Shown: piece by piece, positions 42,820 through 53,966 of the stretch | Position numbering within the stretch: the stretch's first letter is position 1 | Layout: each line of letters begins with the position of its first letter | Origin: Chlorobiaceae bacterium | Lineage (GTDB): Bacteria; Bacteroidota; Chlorobiia; Chlorobiales; Chlorobiaceae | Assembly: GCA_013334925.1 (NCBI GenBank) | Contig: JAAXWP010000010.1 | Location: 1 to 54,094, forward strand | Length of the DNA stretch: 54,094 nt | Direction: 5' to 3' | Position numbers and translations under genes: made by a program | Notes under the pieces: generated by a model | What the model saw: the letters and a program-made list of their open reading frames with translations, nothing else | Told to the model about the DNA's origin: nothing | Databases searched by the model: none

Positions 42820-44400
42820 ATGACCGAATCGACGCCCCCTTGCCCGTATCGTCAGCAGGTGCCGCTGTCAACTGTCGGCTATTATGCAATCGGCGGCGAG
42901 GCGCGCTGGCTTGCAGAGCCCCGCAACGTACGGGAACTGGCGGCGCTGCTTGCATGGTGTCGAAGCCGGGAGTTGCCGGTTATCGTGACCGGGAAGGGGA
43001 GCAATATGCTTTTTTCGGATGAGGAGTTCCCCGGTGTGGTCGTCTCTACGGCGTCGATGCAGCGTATATGGCAGGTTTCATCGAAGCGATTTTTCTGCGA
43101 GGCGGGTGTCGAGAACAGCGAGGTTGCAACCCGTCTGCGTGAAGCGGGCCTGAGTGGAGGCGAGTGGCTGTACCGTCTGCCGGGCATGATCGGTGCTACC
43201 GTCCGCATGAATGGACGTTGCTATGGCAAGGAGGTGTCGGAGGTGACCGCAGGCCTTGTCACCGTCACGCTGGACGGCACGGTGCGATGGCGCAGCAAAG
43301 AGGAGGTGTTCAGAGGCTACAAACACACGAGCCTCATGGATGGCCGTGAGATCGTCGCCGGTGTGCTGCTCGAGTTTTCGGATGCCAGACCTGAGGAGCA
43401 GATCAGGAGTGTCATGCAGGAGTATGAGCTGGACCGAAACGCCAAACACCAGTTCGACTATCCGAGTTGCGGGTCGACCTTCAAGAACAGCTATGCCGCA
43501 GGGAAGCCAAGCGGCCAGATTTTCGAGTCGCTCGGTTTCAAGGGACGGCGTGAAGGCGGTGCAAAGGTGAGTGACCACCATGCGAATTTCATTTTCAACA
43601 CCGGTGGCGCCAAAGCTGTGGATGTGCTTCACCTTGCCGCCGCCATGCGCACGGCTGCCAGGGAAGATGCCGGAGCCGAACTCGAACTCGAGCTGCAGTG
43701 TGCGGGTCTGTTCGATGCTGCGCTCCTCGAGGAGTGCGGTATTCCCGCAGTTCCCGACAACGATCGTCCCGGATATGCCTGGGCAGGGCTTCTGAAGTTT
43801 GATGATTCCGTTCAGGATGCGTTGCCCCATGTGCTTCTGGATGGGGAGCTGCTGGATTATTCAGGGGCTGACGCCGGGTTTCCCGAGAATATCCGCGTGA
43901 GGGTCGAACAGCTCGAGTCCCTCGACGAGGCCATGAATCAGCCGGAACGGCCGTTTCTGCGCTGGACCACCACTGCGAACAGGTCTCCCTTTTCCCTGCG
44001 TCCTGAGCCGTCTGACAGTGATTTTACCGACCGTTTGTGGGAGTACAGCGTGTCTGAACTGTTCATCGGTGGAAAAGAGGGGTATCTGGAGTTTGAGATG
44101 ACGCAGGAAGGGAAATGGGTCGCCATCCGTTTCGATGCCCCACGACTAAGGGCGGAAGGCCATGAACCGCCGTCAGCGCCTTTATGGACGGGTATGGTCA
44201 ACCCGTTTGCGGAAGAGAGTTCATTCGGGATGGAGCTTTCCTACAGCCTCATGGAGCCGTTCATTCAGGATGGGCTGCTCTCCATGCAGTGCTGTGCGAG
44301 CCTTGGCAACGCCCAGTATGGCCTGTTTCCGTGGTGGGACGATGCCGGAAAGCCGGATTTCCATCAGCCGGATCGATTCTGCCCGGTAGTGCTGGTGTGA
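42820..44400 (+). CDS. MurB-type UDP-N-acetylenolpyruvoylglucosamine reductase with C-terminal extension
   Basis: Residues about 1-290 of this 526-residue protein are MurB: FAD site VTGKGSNMLFSDEEFPGVVV, LPGMIGATVRMNGRCYG (usually IPGxxGGAxxMNAGxxG), catalytic serine in PSCGSTFKNS, SGQIFESLGFKGRREGGAKVS and a final acidic LELELQ. MurB reduces enolpyruvyl-UDP-GlcNAc in peptidoglycan synthesis. Residues about 310-526 form a separate domain with YSVSELFIGGKEGYLEFEM and FGMELSYSLMEPFIQDG that resembles family 9 carbohydrate-binding or DOMON-like beta-sandwiches. Changes in the GxxGG region leave it open whether this is the main MurB or a paralogue. Confidence 0.85.
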   Translation: MTESTPPCPYRQQVPLSTVGYYAIGGEARWLAEPRNVRELAALLAWCRSRELPVIVTGKGSNMLFSDEEFPGVVVSTASMQRIWQVSSKRFFCEAGVENSEVATRLREAGLSGGEWLYRLPGMIGATVRMNGRCYGKEVSEVTAGLVTVTLDGTVRWRSKEEVFRGYKHTSLMDGREIVAGVLLEFSDARPEEQIRSVMQEYELDRNAKHQFDYPSCGSTFKNSYAAGKPSGQIFESLGFKGRREGGAKVSDHHANFIFNTGGAKAVDVLHLAAAMRTAAREDAGAELELELQCAGLFDAALLEECGIPAVPDNDRPGYAWAGLLKFDDSVQDALPHVLLDGELLDYSGADAGFPENIRVRVEQLESLDEAMNQPERPFLRWTTTANRSPFSLRPEPSDSDFTDRLWEYSVSELFIGGKEGYLEFEMTQEGKWVAIRFDAPRLRAEGHEPPSAPLWTGMVNPFAEESSFGMELSYSLMEPFIQDGLLSMQCCASLGNAQYGLFPWWDDAGKPDFHQPDRFCPVVLV

Positions 44401-44481
44401 CAAGTGACAAGTGACAAGTGACAAGTGACAAGTGACAAGTGACAAGTGACAAGTGATGAGTGATGAGTGATGAGTGACGGG
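44398..44481 (+). repeat. TGACAAG/TGATGAG heptamer array
   Basis: Eight copies of TGACAAG, three of TGATGAG and one TGACGGG follow each other without slip. The first TGA is the stop codon of the murB-like gene itself. A 7-bp unit starting with TGA places a stop in all three forward frames; the reverse strand stays open. Confidence 0.95.
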
Positions 44482-44659: not shown

Positions 44660-45526
44660 TCAAAGATCCTGCTGCGGCATGGCCTGCACCTCGGATGCGG
44701 TGAATACCGGCCCCTCCTTGCAGATGTAGACCGATCCCACGTTGCAGCGTCCGCACTTGCCGATTCCGCATTTCATGCGATTCTCGAGCGTGGTGTAGAC
44801 ATTATCGGCACTGAACCCGAGCTTTTCGAGCGCATTCAGGGTGAACTTGATCATGATCGGCGGTCCGCAGAGCACAGCTATGGTGTTGTCCGGCGATGGC
44901 GCGACCTTTTCGAGCACTGACGGCACAAAGCCGACGTGATCCTGCCAGTCGGGGGTCTCACCTCCCGGATCGACGGTAAGCACCAGGTTGACGTCGTCGC
45001 GTTGTTTCCACTCGTCGAGTTCGTTCTTGTAGACGAGATCTGCCACGGTTCTCGCACCATAGACAATCGTGACGTCACGGTACCTGTCACGCCGGTCGAG
45101 GCACGACCAGATGACGCTCCTCGTTGGCGGCAGGGCGATGCCTCCTGCGATGAAGAGCAGATTTTTGCCTTCGAACTCCTCGATGGGGAATCGGTTGCCG
45201 TATGGCCCCCTGAAGGTCACGATATCGCCCGCATCTACCGCAGCCAGGGTAGAGGTCACTCGACCCGACTGGCGGAAGGTGCATTCGATATAGTCTTTCC
45301 GGGTCTCCGGGCTGGCGACGCAGAAGGTACTTTCACCCTCACCGAAAATACCGTACAGGCCGAACATGCCGGTCTGGTAGTGGTTTCTGAAGAACTCATG
45401 GTGCTCCTGGTTCAGGAACTCGAGTTTGAGGGTCCTTACGCCAGGGGCCTCTTCCCGCTTTGATACGACCCGCATTGGAAACGGGCTGTAAAGCGTGCTG
45501 CAATAATGGTATCGGTCGTGTGTCAC
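44660..45526 (-). CDS. flxA: FAD/NAD-binding oxidoreductase with [2Fe-2S] cluster, FlxA-like
   Basis: 288 residues from GTG 45526, which overlaps the flxB stop as GTGA; the frame extends upstream but only inside flxB. The protein is of the HydG/ferredoxin-NADP reductase type: FAD segment GRVTSTLAAVDAGDIVTFRGPYGNRFP, LLFIAGGIALPP for NAD(P), CGPPIMI, and at the end four cysteines C253, C258, C261 and C269, the pattern of dihydroorotate dehydrogenase-type [2Fe-2S] proteins. In FlxABCD-HdrABC complexes FlxA oxidises NADH. It is the last gene of the operon. Confidence 0.9.
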   Translation of the reverse strand: MTHDRYHYCSTLYSPFPMRVVSKREEAPGVRTLKLEFLNQEHHEFFRNHYQTGMFGLYGIFGEGESTFCVASPETRKDYIECTFRQSGRVTSTLAAVDAGDIVTFRGPYGNRFPIEEFEGKNLLFIAGGIALPPTRSVIWSCLDRRDRYRDVTIVYGARTVADLVYKNELDEWKQRDDVNLVLTVDPGGETPDWQDHVGFVPSVLEKVAPSPDNTIAVLCGPPIMIKFTLNALEKLGFSADNVYTTLENRMKCGIGKCGRCNVGSVYICKEGPVFTASEVQAMPQQDL

Positions 45527-46536
45527 TTCGCTGTGTTGGTGATCTCTTGCAAGGTTTCGGTAATACCCATGTCCACCGGGCACTGGCGGGTGCACCGGCC
45601 GCAGCCGCTGCAGCTGTTCACGCCGAACTTGCCGCGATAGTAGTTGAATTTGTGCATGATACGCTGACGCCACCGCATCGACTGGGTGTTCCTCGGATTG
45701 TGTCCGGAGGTGTGCATGGTGAACATCGCGAACGAGCAGCTGTCCCAGTTCTTGCGACGGATGCCGCTATAGGTGTCGCCTTCGTCCTGGATATCGAAGC
45801 AGTGACAGGTCGGGCACAGGAAGGTGCAGCTGCCGCAACCGATGCAACGCTGGGAGATCTCTTTCCAGAAGTGGCTTTCGAAGTTCGCCGGGTCAGCCAG
45901 CCATGTCATCGCCTTTTCGACATCGAATTTTACGGGCACATTGGCCAGGGATGCGGTCTCGGCGGCATCTTCCTGAAGCATCGGAACGACGGTCTCCAGC
46001 AGAGCTTTGCCGCGATCGGTCAGGGTGACCATCTGCCAGCCTCGTCCGTCCTTCAACGGATGCAGCATGATGTCGGAGCCCTTCGGGTTATCGGGACCAA
46101 GATTCACCGAGGTGCACATGCAGAAAGGATCGGCTTTCGTGCAGGCGATGGTTACGATCACCGAATTTTCCCGGCGTTTGAACCAGTACTGGTCTTTATA
46201 GTCCCACCCGAACAGCGGATCGTCGATGTCGAGCCCGGCCGCGTCACAGGGACGCACGCCGAAAAAGACCCGCTTGTCGTCGGGAGGCAGCATCTCCTCG
46301 GTGTCGATCTGCTGCTTTTTGATCTCATACCTGACCAGCGGTTCGGTCTGAGGGAAGAAATGATCCTTGATGGTCCGTTCGGGAAGCACCAGGTCGAGTG
46401 CCATGTCTGCGGCAGAGGCAACTTCGTCAAAACTCGTCAGATTATTGCTCCGTGAAGGCGCAATGACCCGGTATCCTGCCGAACGCCAGGCGGATAGACA
46501 GTCGTCCAGTCTGCTGTTAAGGAGTATTCTGGTCAT
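45523..46536 (-). CDS. flxB: Iron-sulfur protein, FlxB/HydB-like
   Basis: 337 residues from ATG 46536, chosen because earlier parts of the frame lie inside flxC and are not conserved in character. Two [4Fe-4S] sites are visible: C231-x2-C-x2-C-x3-C241 in RCIGCGSCTFLCPTC and C309-x2-C-x2-C-x3-C319 in SCSGCGRCTRQCP. The protein resembles the beta subunit of sulfhydrogenases and anaerobic sulfite reductase A. It relays electrons between FlxA and HdrA in the proposed complex. Confidence 0.88.
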   Translation of the reverse strand: MTRILLNSRLDDCLSAWRSAGYRVIAPSRSNNLTSFDEVASAADMALDLVLPERTIKDHFFPQTEPLVRYEIKKQQIDTEEMLPPDDKRVFFGVRPCDAAGLDIDDPLFGWDYKDQYWFKRRENSVIVTIACTKADPFCMCTSVNLGPDNPKGSDIMLHPLKDGRGWQMVTLTDRGKALLETVVPMLQEDAAETASLANVPVKFDVEKAMTWLADPANFESHFWKEISQRCIGCGSCTFLCPTCHCFDIQDEGDTYSGIRRKNWDSCSFAMFTMHTSGHNPRNTQSMRWRQRIMHKFNYYRGKFGVNSCSGCGRCTRQCPVDMGITETLQEITNTAK

Positions 46537-46550
46537 ACAGCTCAGTAGGC

Positions 46551-47381
46551 TTATAAAATGAATGTCTCGGGGTCGTCCTGCCTGAAGGTGGCAAGCACGG
46601 GTTTCTGGTCGGCGCTTTCGCCGGGAAAGTGGCCGAAGATATCCAGCGTTTCCTTCGACATGCGATGGTTGATCAGCCGAAGCGGGATATTGACGGGGCA
46701 GGCGCGATCGCATCCGCCACAGGCTACGCAGCGTCCGGCCAGGTGGAACGCGCGAACGATGTTCCATTCGAAATTGCCGAGCGTATGTGACGAGGTGTTG
46801 ATCCATTGGGGCTGGTTGACGTCGACAATGCAGCGACGGCAGTAGCACATCGGGCAGACCTGGCGGCAGGCGTAGCATTTGATGCACTTGGCGAACTGCT
46901 CTTTCCAGTAGTCGAAGCGTTCGACGGCGCTCATCTGTTCGAGCCTGTCGGCTTCGCGCTGCAGCTCGGGAGAGAGCCCCGAGCTCCTGAGGGACTCCAT
47001 GAGCGGAGCGTAATCGGCGGCTTTGCGTCCCGGCAGGGGAGTTGTCTGCTCTCCTTCGATGTTGAAGCCAAGAATCACGACCTGATCCGGGTTCACCTGA
47101 GCTTCGGCCGAAAGAATGTTCACACTCCTGATGCCGTCGGGTTTGAGGAAAACCGCAACGTTCTTTCCATCACTGAGCAAGCCTTCGGATATGAGATAGG
47201 CCGACAGGTTTGCCACGCAGTACGAGTCGAGGACAAGTCGGCTGACCTCTTCAGCAGAGCGGACGAATACCGGACGGCGACGGTCGGGAGTCGAACCTCC
47301 TCCATAACCGATCACCAGCTTGACGGCACCCGACGAGAGCAGTTCAGCGGCTTCGTTTCTGTATTGTTCCTGAATTCCCAT
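46551..47381 (-). CDS. flxC: Iron-sulfur protein, FlxC-like
   Basis: 276 residues from ATG 47381 (MGIQEQYRNEAAELL), preferred over an upstream start that would overlap flxD. Cysteines C166, C169, C172, C176 form one cluster site, with further C179, C181 and C184 right behind it (CIKCYACRQVCPMCYCRRC), and C218, C221, C224, C228 form a second. The extra cysteines are noteworthy. The N-terminal 130 residues resemble F420-type or 4Fe-4S dehydrogenase beta domains. Gap to flxB is 14 bp. Confidence 0.85.
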   Translation of the reverse strand: MGIQEQYRNEAAELLSSGAVKLVIGYGGGSTPDRRRPVFVRSAEEVSRLVLDSYCVANLSAYLISEGLLSDGKNVAVFLKPDGIRSVNILSAEAQVNPDQVVILGFNIEGEQTTPLPGRKAADYAPLMESLRSSGLSPELQREADRLEQMSAVERFDYWKEQFAKCIKCYACRQVCPMCYCRRCIVDVNQPQWINTSSHTLGNFEWNIVRAFHLAGRCVACGGCDRACPVNIPLRLINHRMSKETLDIFGHFPGESADQKPVLATFRQDDPETFIL

Positions 47382-47391
47382 TGATGATTCC

Positions 47392-47841
47392 TTAATACGT
47401 AGACTGGGTTTCGATAACTTTCTGCAGCTCCTGGTACTGTTCAAACGGCCCGAGCGCACGGATTTCATCCGTGATGCCGTTGATCAGTTCCGCAAACTTT
47501 GCACCTTCGGCAGCGCTGATCCATGAGAACTTGATCCGCTCTTCGGGGATTCCCGTGAATGAGAGCAGTGCCCGGAATACCGTCCATCTCCTGCGGGCAT
47601 GGTAGTTGCCCTGGGCGAAATGGCAGTCGCCCGGATGGCAGCCGCTGACGAGCACTCCGTCCGCACCTTTCTGAAGGGCTTTCAGAATGAACATCGGACT
47701 GATGCGACCGGTGCAGGGAAGACGTACGATCCTGACGTTCGGTGCATATTTCATGCGGCTGGTGCCGGCAAGGTCTGCGCCTGCGTAGGTACAGTACGTG
47801 CAGACAAAGGCTACGATTTTGGGTTCGAATGGTTCGCTCAT
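47392..47841 (-). CDS. flxD: MvhD-like iron-sulfur adaptor, FlxD
   Basis: The 149-residue protein matches MvhD, the adaptor that joins a hydrogenase or dehydrogenase to HdrA. CTYCTYAGADLAG near residue 14, RLPCTGRISP and GCHPGDCHF supply the cysteines for a [2Fe-2S]-type cluster. There is no separate hydrogenase subunit in the neighbourhood, so the electron donor here should be FlxABC (NADH). It lies 10 bp before flxC and 57 bp after hdrA. Confidence 0.92.
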   Translation of the reverse strand: MSEPFEPKIVAFVCTYCTYAGADLAGTSRMKYAPNVRIVRLPCTGRISPMFILKALQKGADGVLVSGCHPGDCHFAQGNYHARRRWTVFRALLSFTGIPEERIKFSWISAAEGAKFAELINGITDEIRALGPFEQYQELQKVIETQSTY

Positions 47842-47898
47842 CGGCTCTACTTCAGTCGATTGGTTGATTACAGGTGTTTCTATTCCGGTCAGTCAATC

Positions 47899-49869
47899 TC
47901 AGAGGCCCATCACCTCGGCGAAAATCTGCTTTTCGGTGAATCCGGCAAGATCGATGCTGTTCGAACGGCAGAAGCTCACACAGGTGCCACACCCCTGACA
48001 CAGGCCGGGATTGACGCTCGCCACCCGCTTGATCAGGTTGCCATTCCTGTCGGTGATGTCTCTGCGATCGATGGCGTTGTAAGGGCAGGCGATCACGCAC
48101 CCCCAGCAACCGGCACAGGTGGAGTCGCTGACCGAAGCGACCACCGGTTCGCGCTCCAGCTGCTCCTTGCTGAACAGGCCGAGTACCTTTGCCGCGGCTG
48201 CTGAAGCCTGGGCGACCGAGTCCGGGATATCTTTCGGGGACTGGCACGCACCGGCGAGGTAGATGCCTGCCGTGGCGGTTTCAACCGGGCGAAGTTTCAG
48301 GTGTGCTTCGTTGTAGAAGCCGTACTCGTCGTAGCCGATGCCGATCCGCTTGGCGAACTCCTTGGCGTCGGGCTGGGGTATCATGGCTGTAGCCAGCACC
48401 ACCATGTCTGCCTCGACCTCCACCGGTTTGCCGAGCAGGGTGTCGACACCGCGCACGATGAGTTTGCCGTTTTCCTCGTAAAGCTTGCTGACACGTCCGC
48501 GGATGTATCCAGCCTGGTCCTCTTCAATCGCGCGACGGGTGAACTCGTCGTAGCCTTTGCCTGCGGCCCGTATGTCCATGTAGAAGATCCGGGTTTTGCC
48601 GTGGTGAACCTTGTGCGCATAGAGCATGGCATGTTTGGCGGTGTACATGCAGCAGATCTTCGAGCAGTATTTCACGCCCTTTGCCGCGTCGCGCGATCCT
48701 GCGCACTGGAGGAAGACGATCGTCTCCGGCTCCTTGCCGTCGGATGGACGCAGAATCTTTCCGGCGGTCGGGCCGCTTGCCGAGGCGAGACGCTCGAAAT
48801 GAAGGCCGGTGATCACATCCTTGTATCGGCCATAACCGTATTCACCGTAGAGTGCGGTGTTCTGTACCTGAAACCCTGTCGCCACCACGATGGCGCCGAC
48901 TTCGAGGCTGACCATCCTGTCCTGCTGTTCGAAATCGATGCTGTCGATCTGGCAGGTTTTCTGGCAGATTTTGCACTTGCCGTTCTTGAAGTAGGTGCAT
49001 CGGTCGCGATCGATAACCGGAACGTTCGGCACCGCTTGCGCGAACGGGGTATAGATGGCGGTCCGGTTGCCGAGACCGCATTCGAAATCGCTGGGGATTT
49101 TCTTGACCGGGCACTTCTGGATGCAGTCTCCGCAGCCGGTACAGGTCTCCATCTTGACATAGCGGGCTTTCTGGCGGACCTTTACCGTGAAGTTACCGAT
49201 ATATCCATCGACCTCTTCGACCTCCGAGTAGGTCATGACGGTGATATTCGGGTGCTGAACAGCCTCGACCATTCGTGGCGTGAGGATACACTGCGAGCAG
49301 TCAAGAGTCGGGAAGGTCTCGGAAAGCTGCGCCATATGGCCGCCGATGGATGGTTCCCGTTCAACCAGGATCACTTCGCGACCTGCCGAGGCGATGTCGA
49401 GTGCCGCCTGGATGCCTGCAACGCCGCCGCCGATTACCATCGCCCGCCGGGTGACTGGTACCGATATGGGCTGAAGATTGTTGTTCCGCTTGACCTTTTC
49501 GACGAGTGATCTGGTAATCTCGATCGCCTTGTCGGTGGCCTGGATCTTGTCGGTATGCACCCATGAACACTGTTCGCGGATATTGGCCAGTTCGAGCATG
49601 TATGGATTCAGACCGGCTTCGGCACACGCCTTGCGGAAGGTCTGTTCGTGCATCCTCGGAGAGCATGCAGCGACGACTACACCGGTAAGATTGTTCTCAC
49701 GTATGGCTTTTTTGACGGTCTCCTGCCCGGGGTCTGAACAGAAATACTTGTATTCGGAAGAGAACGCGACTCCCGGATGTTCGGATATGGTCGTAACCAG
49801 TTTACCGGTGTCGACCATCGAAGCTATATTTTCACCGCAGTGACAGACGAATACTCCTATTTTTGCCAT
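47899..49869 (-). CDS. hdrA: Heterodisulfide reductase subunit A-like, FAD and multi-FeS protein
   Basis: This 656-residue protein is HdrA-type. FAD motif GGGVAG (147-152), C191 and C194 in LDCSQC, [4Fe-4S] at C243-C253 (CTGCGDCIQKC), a second cysteine set C291, C299, C302, C306, a KYCSKICCMYTAKHA motif, and two C-terminal ferredoxin clusters C585-C595 and C624-C634. HdrA carries the bifurcating flavin in MvhAGD-HdrABC and FlxABCD-HdrABC. Here it is followed by flxDCBA, so it should pass NADH electrons partly to ferredoxin and partly to a disulfide via HdrCB. Qmo/sulfur-type functions are alternatives. Confidence 0.92.
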   Translation of the reverse strand: MAKIGVFVCHCGENIASMVDTGKLVTTISEHPGVAFSSEYKYFCSDPGQETVKKAIRENNLTGVVVAACSPRMHEQTFRKACAEAGLNPYMLELANIREQCSWVHTDKIQATDKAIEITRSLVEKVKRNNNLQPISVPVTRRAMVIGGGVAGIQAALDIASAGREVILVEREPSIGGHMAQLSETFPTLDCSQCILTPRMVEAVQHPNITVMTYSEVEEVDGYIGNFTVKVRQKARYVKMETCTGCGDCIQKCPVKKIPSDFECGLGNRTAIYTPFAQAVPNVPVIDRDRCTYFKNGKCKICQKTCQIDSIDFEQQDRMVSLEVGAIVVATGFQVQNTALYGEYGYGRYKDVITGLHFERLASASGPTAGKILRPSDGKEPETIVFLQCAGSRDAAKGVKYCSKICCMYTAKHAMLYAHKVHHGKTRIFYMDIRAAGKGYDEFTRRAIEEDQAGYIRGRVSKLYEENGKLIVRGVDTLLGKPVEVEADMVVLATAMIPQPDAKEFAKRIGIGYDEYGFYNEAHLKLRPVETATAGIYLAGACQSPKDIPDSVAQASAAAAKVLGLFSKEQLEREPVVASVSDSTCAGCWGCVIACPYNAIDRRDITDRNGNLIKRVASVNPGLCQGCGTCVSFCRSNSIDLAGFTEKQIFAEVMGL

Positions 49870-50148
49870 CCTGATGCCTTCGATTTATGGTGTTTCCTAA
49901 CCCGGTTGCCATACTCGTTCCGGATTTCGGCAGAATATCAGACAATCCACTCCTCGGGCTGCTGAACGATACATGATCCAGCAGCATAAAGCTTACGGTT
50001 CCTGATGCCCGCTCATGCCGTGAGCGGTTCGGTACTTGGTGGAGCTGTCGTGACGTGCCTTGCCATCACGACAACCTTGCGCAGTGCGCCGTTAACCGGA
50101 AACCTTAAATGTACGAATGAATAATGCTCTTTCCATGGACATGGCCGT
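49870..50148 (-). other. Structured spacer between hdrCB and hdrA
   Basis: 279 bp without a gene, rich in perfect inverted repeats: GCTGCTG/CAGCAGC (about 49959-49985), CCGCTCA/TGAGCGG (50008-50026) and GTCGTGA/TCACGAC (50047-50072). None is followed by a T-run on the minus strand. They may stabilise or cut the hdrCB message, or mark a separate promoter for hdrA-flx. Confidence 0.55.
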
Positions 50149-51654
50149 TTAAAGGTTTCTGACCATGTCCGTTGCAGGTACGAAGTGCTTGTCGAGCGCG
50201 ACCTCTTCGGCACTCGCGCCGCAGGCCATGGCTACCAGGTCCGAGATATAAAAGACCGGCATCACCCCTGCGTCGCTGTAACGCTTGCGCATACCCTCCT
50301 GGCGCATATCGAGATTGGTGTGGCAGAGCGGACAGGCCACGACAAAAGCGCCAGCGCCGTTTACCGAAGCATTTTTCGAGATGCGATAGGTCAGATCCTC
50401 GATCATCTCCTGCTGGGCCATCGTCAGACCGGCACCGCAGCACTCCACCTTGTAGGCCCAGTCCACCGGTTTTGCGCCGAGCGCTTCGATAACCTTCTCC
50501 ATCTTGGTCGGGTTTTCCGGGTCATCATAACCCATGGCTTCGAAGGGCCTTACCAGCAGGCAGCCGTAATAGCAGGCAATCGGCAACTCCTTGAGGGGTT
50601 TGGTCACCCTCGACTTGAGCTGTTCGGTTCCGAACCCTTCCAGCAGCTGCATGACACCGATGAATTGCGCCCGACAGGTTGTCTCGGTGCCGGTAACGCT
50701 TTCCAGATCGGCGCGAAGCTCTTCGGATTCAATGAGGGCTTTCCGGGCGGTCACCTGGCGATTCAGACATGCTGCACAGGGGGCGAGCACGTAATCCATG
50801 CCCTGAGCGTCGGCAAGCGCTTGGTTTCTTGCCGGAAGCAGCATGGCAAGCTTGTGGTTGGTCGCGTGTGCTGAGCTGGCACCACAGCAGTTCCAGTCCT
50901 CGATCTCCTTGAGCCTGATGCCAAGACGATCGCACATTTTCCGGATGGAGATGTCATAATCTTTGGCGGTTCCGGAGAGCGAGCAGCCCGGATAGTAGCC
51001 GATCGTCATGCCCGACTCGATCTTTACCGTTGCATCCGGACGGAAGGTTCGTCTGACCGGTTTGCGACGCTCGGTGTGCGACTGGGACTCCTGCTCGGAG
51101 ATCCTGAAAATCTTCTCGATCTGCTCTTTAGCCTGGACGCTCTCTTTCGAGGTCAGTGCCGAAACGGGGTGAATTTTGCCCTGTTTGATCATTTTCATGC
51201 CCGCGCTCGCGTCCTGCATGAAGGTGCGGGTTCGAAGCTTGTAGCTGTTGACCAGTGCAAGCTCCTGGAGACGTCCGGTTTTCCGTACGGTGTTCAGGAA
51301 TGCGCTGTGGAAAGCCGTGACGAACTTTTTTGAACGGGTCTGAGCGGCATCGCTGTCGTTTTTCAGCGACATCTCCCGCAGAGCGTCCATCGTACCGGCG
51401 ATCTCGAGATTCTGGGGGCACCTCGACGTGCAGGTCATGCAGCCGATGCAGTACCAGAGCGAATCGCTTTTCATGGCGTCATCGACATAGCCGGCCTGAA
51501 CCATGCGCATGATCCTGGCGGGAGGATTGTCCATGAAGCCGCCGGCAGGGCAGCCTGCGGTGCATTTTCCGCACTGGTAACAGCAGGCGTAGTTATTGCC
51601 GGTCACTTTTTCGAGCTGCTGCTTCAAAGAATCTGGACGTATAGAGTGCTCCAT
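50149..51654 (-). CDS. hdrCB: Fused heterodisulfide reductase subunits C and B
   Basis: 501 residues from ATG 51654. The N-terminal HdrC part has two [4Fe-4S] sites, C25-x2-C28-x2-C31-x3-C35 and C69-x2-C72-x2-C75-x3-C79. The C-terminal HdrB part (from about residue 215) has two CCG domains: GYYPGCS...WNCCGASS...LAPCAAC and CYYGC...VECCGAGL...ACPLCH, which hold the noncubane cluster that cleaves disulfides. A fusion, or D-type HdrD-like order C then B, in a bacterium without coenzymes M and B means the disulfide partner is unknown. First gene of the operon. Confidence 0.9.
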   Translation of the reverse strand: MEHSIRPDSLKQQLEKVTGNNYACCYQCGKCTAGCPAGGFMDNPPARIMRMVQAGYVDDAMKSDSLWYCIGCMTCTSRCPQNLEIAGTMDALREMSLKNDSDAAQTRSKKFVTAFHSAFLNTVRKTGRLQELALVNSYKLRTRTFMQDASAGMKMIKQGKIHPVSALTSKESVQAKEQIEKIFRISEQESQSHTERRKPVRRTFRPDATVKIESGMTIGYYPGCSLSGTAKDYDISIRKMCDRLGIRLKEIEDWNCCGASSAHATNHKLAMLLPARNQALADAQGMDYVLAPCAACLNRQVTARKALIESEELRADLESVTGTETTCRAQFIGVMQLLEGFGTEQLKSRVTKPLKELPIACYYGCLLVRPFEAMGYDDPENPTKMEKVIEALGAKPVDWAYKVECCGAGLTMAQQEMIEDLTYRISKNASVNGAGAFVVACPLCHTNLDMRQEGMRKRYSDAGVMPVFYISDLVAMACGASAEEVALDKHFVPATDMVRNL

Positions 51655-53667: not shown

Positions 53668-53680
53668 GGGAAGTTGTGAG

Positions 53681-53939
53681 TGACAAGTGACGAGTGACGA
53701 GTGACAAGTGACAAGTGACGAGTGACAAGTGACGAGTGACAAGTGACAAGTGACGAGTGACAAGTGACAAGTGACAAGTGACGAGTGACAAGTGACAAGT
53801 GACAAGTGACGAGTGACGAGTGACGAGTGACAAGTGACAAGTGACGAGTGACGAGTGACAAGTGACAAGTGACAAGTGACGAGTGACAAGTGACGAGTGA
53901 CGAGTGACAAGTGACGAGTGACGAGTGACGAGTGACGAG
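53681..53939 (+). repeat. 37-unit TGACAAG/TGACGAG heptamer array
   Basis: 37 complete, in-phase 7-bp units, each TGACAAG or TGACGAG in mixed order. It starts 13 bp after the alaC stop. On the plus strand all three frames contain regular TGA stops; the minus strand is open, which gives artefact proteins of SLVTCH/SLVTRH heptapeptides. About 27 bp after the array a probable insertion sequence begins. Confidence 0.95.
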
Positions 53940-53966
53940 TAAGAAAGACGAGAAAGAAAAAGAGGC

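Follow-up and report, generated by a model that had tools for sequence, protein, structure and literature searches.

This report concerns a six-gene flx-hdr locus on a 54,094-nucleotide stretch of DNA, referred to here as the window, which is contig C43 (JAAXWP010000010.1, assembly GCA_013334925.1) of the 2.73 Mb genome of a Chlorobiaceae bacterium. All six genes lie on the minus strand between window positions 44660 and 51654 in the order hdrCB (fused), hdrA, flxD, flxC, flxB and flxA, and every frame is intact. They probably encode a soluble NADH:ferredoxin,disulfide oxidoreductase of the FlxABCD-HdrABC type that serves green sulfur bacteria as a core redox-balancing device. Such complexes have been described from Desulfovibrio vulgaris and other anaerobes (Ramos et al. 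2015, as cited in PMC5296606 and PMC6315080) and, as far as those citing texts describe them, have the same subunits and cluster type. The open-access literature searched yielded no description of Flx-Hdr from green sulfur bacteria, although Ramos 2015, Ferreira 2023 and Pereira 2011 may mention one.

Organisation of the locus

The genes and their products, with lengths in amino acids (aa), are as follows.

50149..51654, minus strand: hdrCB, 501 aa; PF02754 and Fer4 (Pfam)
47899..49869, minus strand: hdrA, 656 aa; presumed bifurcating subunit of the full-length type carrying flavin adenine dinucleotide (FAD), with an N-terminal domain and with ferredoxin domains that are inserted and C-terminal
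47392..47841, minus strand: flxD (mvhD-like), 149 aa; [2Fe-2S] subunit and presumed electron donor to HdrA; PF02662 FlpD, 3.6e-52
46551..47381, minus strand: flxC, 276 aa; adaptor with two [4Fe-4S] motifs and C180/C182/C185
45523..46536, minus strand: flxB, 337 aa; iron-sulfur subunit, sulfhydrogenase beta-like; PF17179, 1.2e-31
44660..45526, minus strand: flxA, 288 aa, GTG start; NAD(P)H/FAD/[2Fe-2S] subunit; PF00175 and PF10418

Each gene name fits the Pfam and NCBIfam matches of its product. Dozens of related genomes have the identical six-gene order, as do members of many distant phyla, and the gene set is therefore not a product of chance. The original prediction, made from the letters of the window, had described six genes on one strand in this order with short spacers and a start/stop overlap. 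The order, the frames and the overlap are confirmed: flxA starts with a GTG at 45526 that overlaps the TGA of flxB (GTGA, 4 bp), an arrangement found in all nine relatives inspected. The spacers are indeed short between hdrA and flxD (57 bp), flxD and flxC (10 bp) and flxC and flxB (14 bp), but not between hdrCB and hdrA, where the gap is 279 bp.

The cluster motifs are kept, as had been claimed, with every predicted iron-sulfur cysteine in place. In HdrCB, HdrA, FlxD, FlxC, FlxB and FlxA alike, the cysteines predicted to bind clusters are invariant across the Chlorobiaceae loci and up to 34 Flx loci elsewhere, the exceptions being HdrA C194 and FlxD C68, which are TGA in five Syntrophomonas-type loci (L120, L124, L125, L126 and L132, in-frame at both positions). 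Two further loci (L163 and L166) have an in-frame TGA at FlxD residue 68. The in-frame TGA codons of the Syntrophomonadaceae-type loci probably specify selenocysteine.

The four Flx subunits all have relatives among solved complexes. FlxD matches the MvhD chains of Hdr complexes (e.g. 9sw2_D and 5odc_D, E about 1e-45); the hydrogenase genes mvhA and mvhG are absent from the locus, which has only the MvhD-like gene, followed by flxC, flxB and flxA. FlxC matches the FdhB iron-sulfur domain of the Hdr-formate dehydrogenase complexes 9t1s, 8rvu and 7bkb. The additional FlxC cysteines, contained in a C-P-x-C-x-C-x-x-C stretch, had been thought unusual; this does not hold, as the same stretch is present in FdhB and the FlxC cysteines are invariant in 54 Chlorobiaceae and 34 other loci. 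FlxB and FlxA match the beta (9nez_B, 1.2e-38) and gamma (9nez_C, 1.2e-52) subunits of sulfhydrogenase 1, respectively, and the [2Fe-2S] ligands of FlxA (C246/C251/C254/C262) are invariant. The locus thus shares homologous HdrA, HdrB, HdrC, MvhD and FdhB-type adaptor domains with the methanogen HdrABC-MvhAGD and HdrABC-FdhAB complexes (5odc, 7bkb, 8rvu, 9t1s), from which it differs in its donor module, a sulfhydrogenase-like and presumably NADH-dependent FlxAB in place of a hydrogenase or formate dehydrogenase, and in that the heterodisulfide of coenzymes M and B (CoM-S-S-CoB) is not its presumed substrate.

A lineage-wide fusion of HdrC and HdrB

HdrCB combines an HdrC portion (residues 1 to 190 approximately, two [4Fe-4S] clusters) with an HdrB portion (residues 216 to 501 approximately) that carries two CCG motifs for noncubane clusters, and in sequence comparisons the HdrC and HdrB chains of solved Hdr complexes each match a separate half of the protein. 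The predicted structure (predicted local distance difference test, pLDDT, 87) superimposes well on solved HdrB in its HdrB half, with template-modelling (TM) scores of 0.89-0.91 by target length, whereas the HdrC half fits the solved HdrC fold more weakly (TM 0.48-0.57). All 18 ligand cysteines are invariant, including C224/256/257/293/296 and C365/405/406/441/444 of the two CCG motifs in the HdrB half. A gene for the membrane cytochrome HdrE, as in HdrDE-type enzymes, does not adjoin hdrCB, whose neighbours are hdrA, mscL and an aminotransferase gene.

Fusion of HdrC and HdrB in a single frame is the rule in Chlorobiaceae. The exception is the single-contig genome G052 (L064, near 10283), where hdrCB is frameshifted between the two halves, the cause being either a secondary split or an error in sequencing. 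Elsewhere among Flx-carrying phyla the two halves are separate genes, hdrC and hdrB, divided by a stop codon at some point between about query residues 183 and 215. Outside Chlorobiaceae a fused HdrCB within a full Flx cluster of this type was seen only in L118, a doubtful metagenome-assembled genome labelled Phycisphaerae; its locus is sister to Chlorobiaceae and may have arisen by transfer or misbinning. The fusion had been called unusual, and it is so across the Flx family as a whole though not within Chlorobiaceae; it is this lineage-wide fusion that marks the family within the known FlxABCD-HdrABC kind. A fused HdrC-HdrB of another type, about 480-513 aa long, occurs in Chloroflexi and Acetothermia (L145, L160, L161, L162, L164, L167 and L168), in several loci near HdrA-like genes.

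HdrA belongs with Flx-linked homologues

HdrA matches the solved methanogen structure 5odc_A from end to end (E 2.6e-207). Against NF040770 (HdrA2), a model that also spans a fused MvhD, it scores 795 bits, under the model cut-off of 1100. Its K412, with a putative role near the flavin, aligns with Lys409 of 5odc_A and is invariant in 103 relatives. This conservation bears on whether Flx-Hdr might be a simple NADH:disulfide (or NADH:ferredoxin) oxidoreductase, which does not bifurcate and merely retains ancestral subunits. In favour of such a reading, photosynthesis already provides reduced ferredoxin, and the need for bifurcation is unclear; however, had the ferredoxin branch been lost, its cysteines should have come under weaker constraint, and because the cluster ligands of HdrA, like K412, are all invariant we find a non-bifurcating enzyme quite improbable.

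In the phylogenetic tree, built without two contig C97 open reading frames unrelated to HdrA (one coding for a 658-aa protein, the other antisense), the HdrA of the window joins those of other Chlorobiaceae and then the Flx-linked HdrA of Bacteroidota, placing it in the Flx-linked clade, a further point of likeness to the D. vulgaris-type complexes. The nearest clade includes the loci of Bacteroides cellulosilyticus (L133) and Dysgonomonas (L141), which have the same gene order but separate hdrC and hdrB genes and are about 37-38% (HdrCB) and 65-66% (HdrA) identical to the window. The phylogeny of HdrA had been proposed as a check against kinship with QmoA, which would assign the locus to sulfite or adenosine 5'-phosphosulfate chemistry. 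The genome does hold a Qmo locus, and QmoABC contains HdrA-related flavoproteins; its QmoA (413 aa, without the N- and C-terminal parts of HdrA) and QmoB are, however, separate proteins on contig C97, and a clade uniting the window HdrA with this QmoA is rejected (approximately unbiased test, p-AU 6.57e-06), though the long branches of the Qmo rows call for caution. A QmoA-like role can be given next to no credence. Protein families, solved-structure relatives, cluster cysteines and the HdrA tree together bear out the predicted identity of the locus as FlxABCD-HdrABC, with conservation along the entire predicted electron route.

Distribution among Chlorobiaceae

The closest match is a metagenome-assembled genome whose HdrCB is 85% identical, and the loci of Chlorobium ferrooxidans DSM 13031 and Chlorobium sp. 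N1 are among the other matches. All 65 good-quality Chlorobiaceae genomes encode flxC, and the Flx-Hdr complex is a core trait of green sulfur bacteria. Because the sampled sister families of the same order lack the fused hdrCB gene and most Chlorobiaceae share the aminotransferase and MurB-like genes that flank the locus, the distribution suggests that the locus was present at the base of the family and has since descended vertically. Compared with D. vulgaris-type FlxABCD-HdrABC, the Chlorobiaceae complex is distinguished by its one-protein HdrCB, its phototrophic host and its retention in lineages without DsrC.

DsrC is not an obligatory partner

The original prediction had named a DsrC-like disulfide as one candidate acceptor. 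The FlxABCD-HdrABC complex of D. vulgaris is an interaction partner of DsrC, according to the citation of that work in PMC10504309, and the complex of Chlorobiaceae might in the same way mainly serve DsrC, linking NADH and ferredoxin to a DsrC disulfide or trisulfide that arises from sulfur oxidation. The window genome is equipped for this: it carries dsrAB, dsrC and the Qmo locus, its dsrC adjoins dsrAB, and its DsrC keeps both C-terminal cysteines. Across the family, 62 of 86 genomes (49 of the 65 good ones) encode DsrC (PF04358). Fourteen genomes that are at least 94% complete lack DsrC as well as any DsrA scoring above the cut-off, yet possess the full six-gene cluster with intact motifs (G189, G149, G221, G165, G141, G201, G161, G213, G083, G249, G245, G292, G094 and G217); G221 is Chlorobium ferrooxidans DSM 13031. 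Their DsrA matches are weak, 80-100 bits, and of a kind also present in genomes that have dsrA. G067, with a partial dsrA apparently cut by the assembly, was left out of this set.

Since these 14 genomes keep all six genes, DsrC is not the obligatory acceptor, and we reject it as a universal partner. Nor can the common retention of the complex be explained by Dsr-based sulfur dissimilation. The candidacy of DsrC survives in genomes such as that of the window, where the protein is present with both cysteines; that the complex mainly serves DsrC is in our judgement unlikely.

Proposed electron flow

FlxABCD-HdrABC would work as a bifurcating enzyme in the following manner. The FlxA FAD would accept a hydride from NADH, and electrons would travel through the FlxA [2Fe-2S] cluster, the clusters of FlxB, the FdhB-like adaptor FlxC and the FlxD [2Fe-2S] cluster to the FAD of HdrA. 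There the pairs would be split, one electron leaving through the ferredoxin domains of HdrA to reduce ferredoxin and the other crossing the HdrC half to reach the pair of noncubane clusters in the HdrB half, the presumed site of disulfide reduction. The reaction is probably reversible: in the light, strongly reduced ferredoxin and a thiol could yield NADH, and in the dark ferredoxin could be re-reduced at the expense of NADH and a disulfide. The window genome encodes no PF01512 protein (NuoF, RnfC, HydB), which makes Flx the obvious candidate to link NADH with ferredoxin.

The complex might instead feed the reductive tricarboxylic acid (TCA) cycle, with thiol produced at HdrCB driving an SdhABE enzyme resembling thiol:fumarate reductase and the ferredoxin arm supplying oxoglutarate and pyruvate synthase. 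The window genome has an sdhA-sdhB-sdhE operon (L084:8580-12222; G000 contig C83) whose third subunit, SdhE, is HdrB-like with two CCG motifs; a second HdrB-like match appears in nearly every Chlorobiaceae genome, and a similar model, along with co-expression, has been presented for the symbionts of Riftia and Escarpia tubeworms (PMC6315080, PMC11636981). Here, however, flx-hdr is not clustered with genes of the reductive TCA cycle, and SdhE is of a kind usually regarded as quinone-using, its best models being the quinol:fumarate reductase anchor and HdrB, both under the cut-off. We consider a dedicated role in this cycle improbable.

Thiol and disulfide candidates for the acceptor

The likeliest acceptor of the Flx-Hdr complex is a general thiol/disulfide, the alternative being the disulfide of a protein, either a thioredoxin-like one or, in genomes that encode it, DsrC. 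Low-molecular-weight disulfides have potentials of about -220 mV, too low to pull the standard-state reduction of ferredoxin from NADH, and with such an acceptor the reverse direction, formation of NADH from reduced ferredoxin and thiol in the light, would be favoured; a protein disulfide of higher potential would permit true bifurcation.

Among small molecules the best candidate, fair though unproven, is N-methyl-bacillithiol disulfide. The original prediction had listed a low-molecular-weight thiol and proposed a search for thiol-biosynthesis genes; the bacillithiol gene bshC is indeed found in 84 of 86 Chlorobiaceae genomes, and N-methyl-bacillithiol has been reported from all Chlorobiaceae examined (PMC6282198). 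It is possible, if rather doubtful, that Flx-HdrCB exchanges electrons with N-methyl-bacillithiol as the general thiol, and not with DsrC or coenzymes M and B, within a bifurcating or confurcating complex.

Besides the low potential of small disulfides, several observations weigh against the interpretation of the locus as a bifurcating NADH:ferredoxin,disulfide oxidoreductase with a thiol-linked acceptor. The co-occurrence of bshC and the complex is weak evidence, both being simply universal in the family. Bacillithiol mutants of Chlorobaculum tepidum grow only about 20% more slowly (PMC6282198), so that the thiol cannot be the sole substrate if the complex is essential. Green sulfur bacteria obtain reduced ferredoxin from light (PMC5972617), and a bifurcating ferredoxin reductase is therefore not obviously needed. 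A preference for NADH over NADPH cannot be read reliably from FlxA, and the window genome also encodes a TIGR01316 (Nfn/GltA-like) protein, an NADPH-linked route.

Neighbouring genes and repeats

The flanking genes (P-type ATPase, MurB-like, MscL and aminotransferase) are often conserved neighbours of the locus and offer no clue to its function. The MurB-like protein (window 42820-44400), a homologue of which sits downstream of flxA in most Chlorobiaceae, has a C-terminal extension of about 230 residues without a Pfam match at 1e-10. Arrays of a 7-bp repeat (GTGACAA / AGTGACA; 12 and 37 copies) occupy window positions 44397-44478 and 53679-53940, one downstream of flxA and the other just past the upstream aminotransferase gene; such arrays were not found in the related loci searched.

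Implications

The physiological disulfide of bacterial HdrABC homologues is an old question, for which Chlorobiaceae offer a natural experiment, because close relatives with and without Dsr all keep the complex. Chlorobaculum tepidum, for which genetics is available (PMC6282198), and the dsr-free Chlorobium ferrooxidans could together decide whether DsrC is needed. Should N-methyl-bacillithiol prove to be the partner, the thiol redox state of a phototroph would be tied to both NADH and ferredoxin. The locus also raises the question of why a phototroph able to reduce ferredoxin with light, and lacking proteins of the NuoF or RnfC type, has retained a presumed bifurcating complex.

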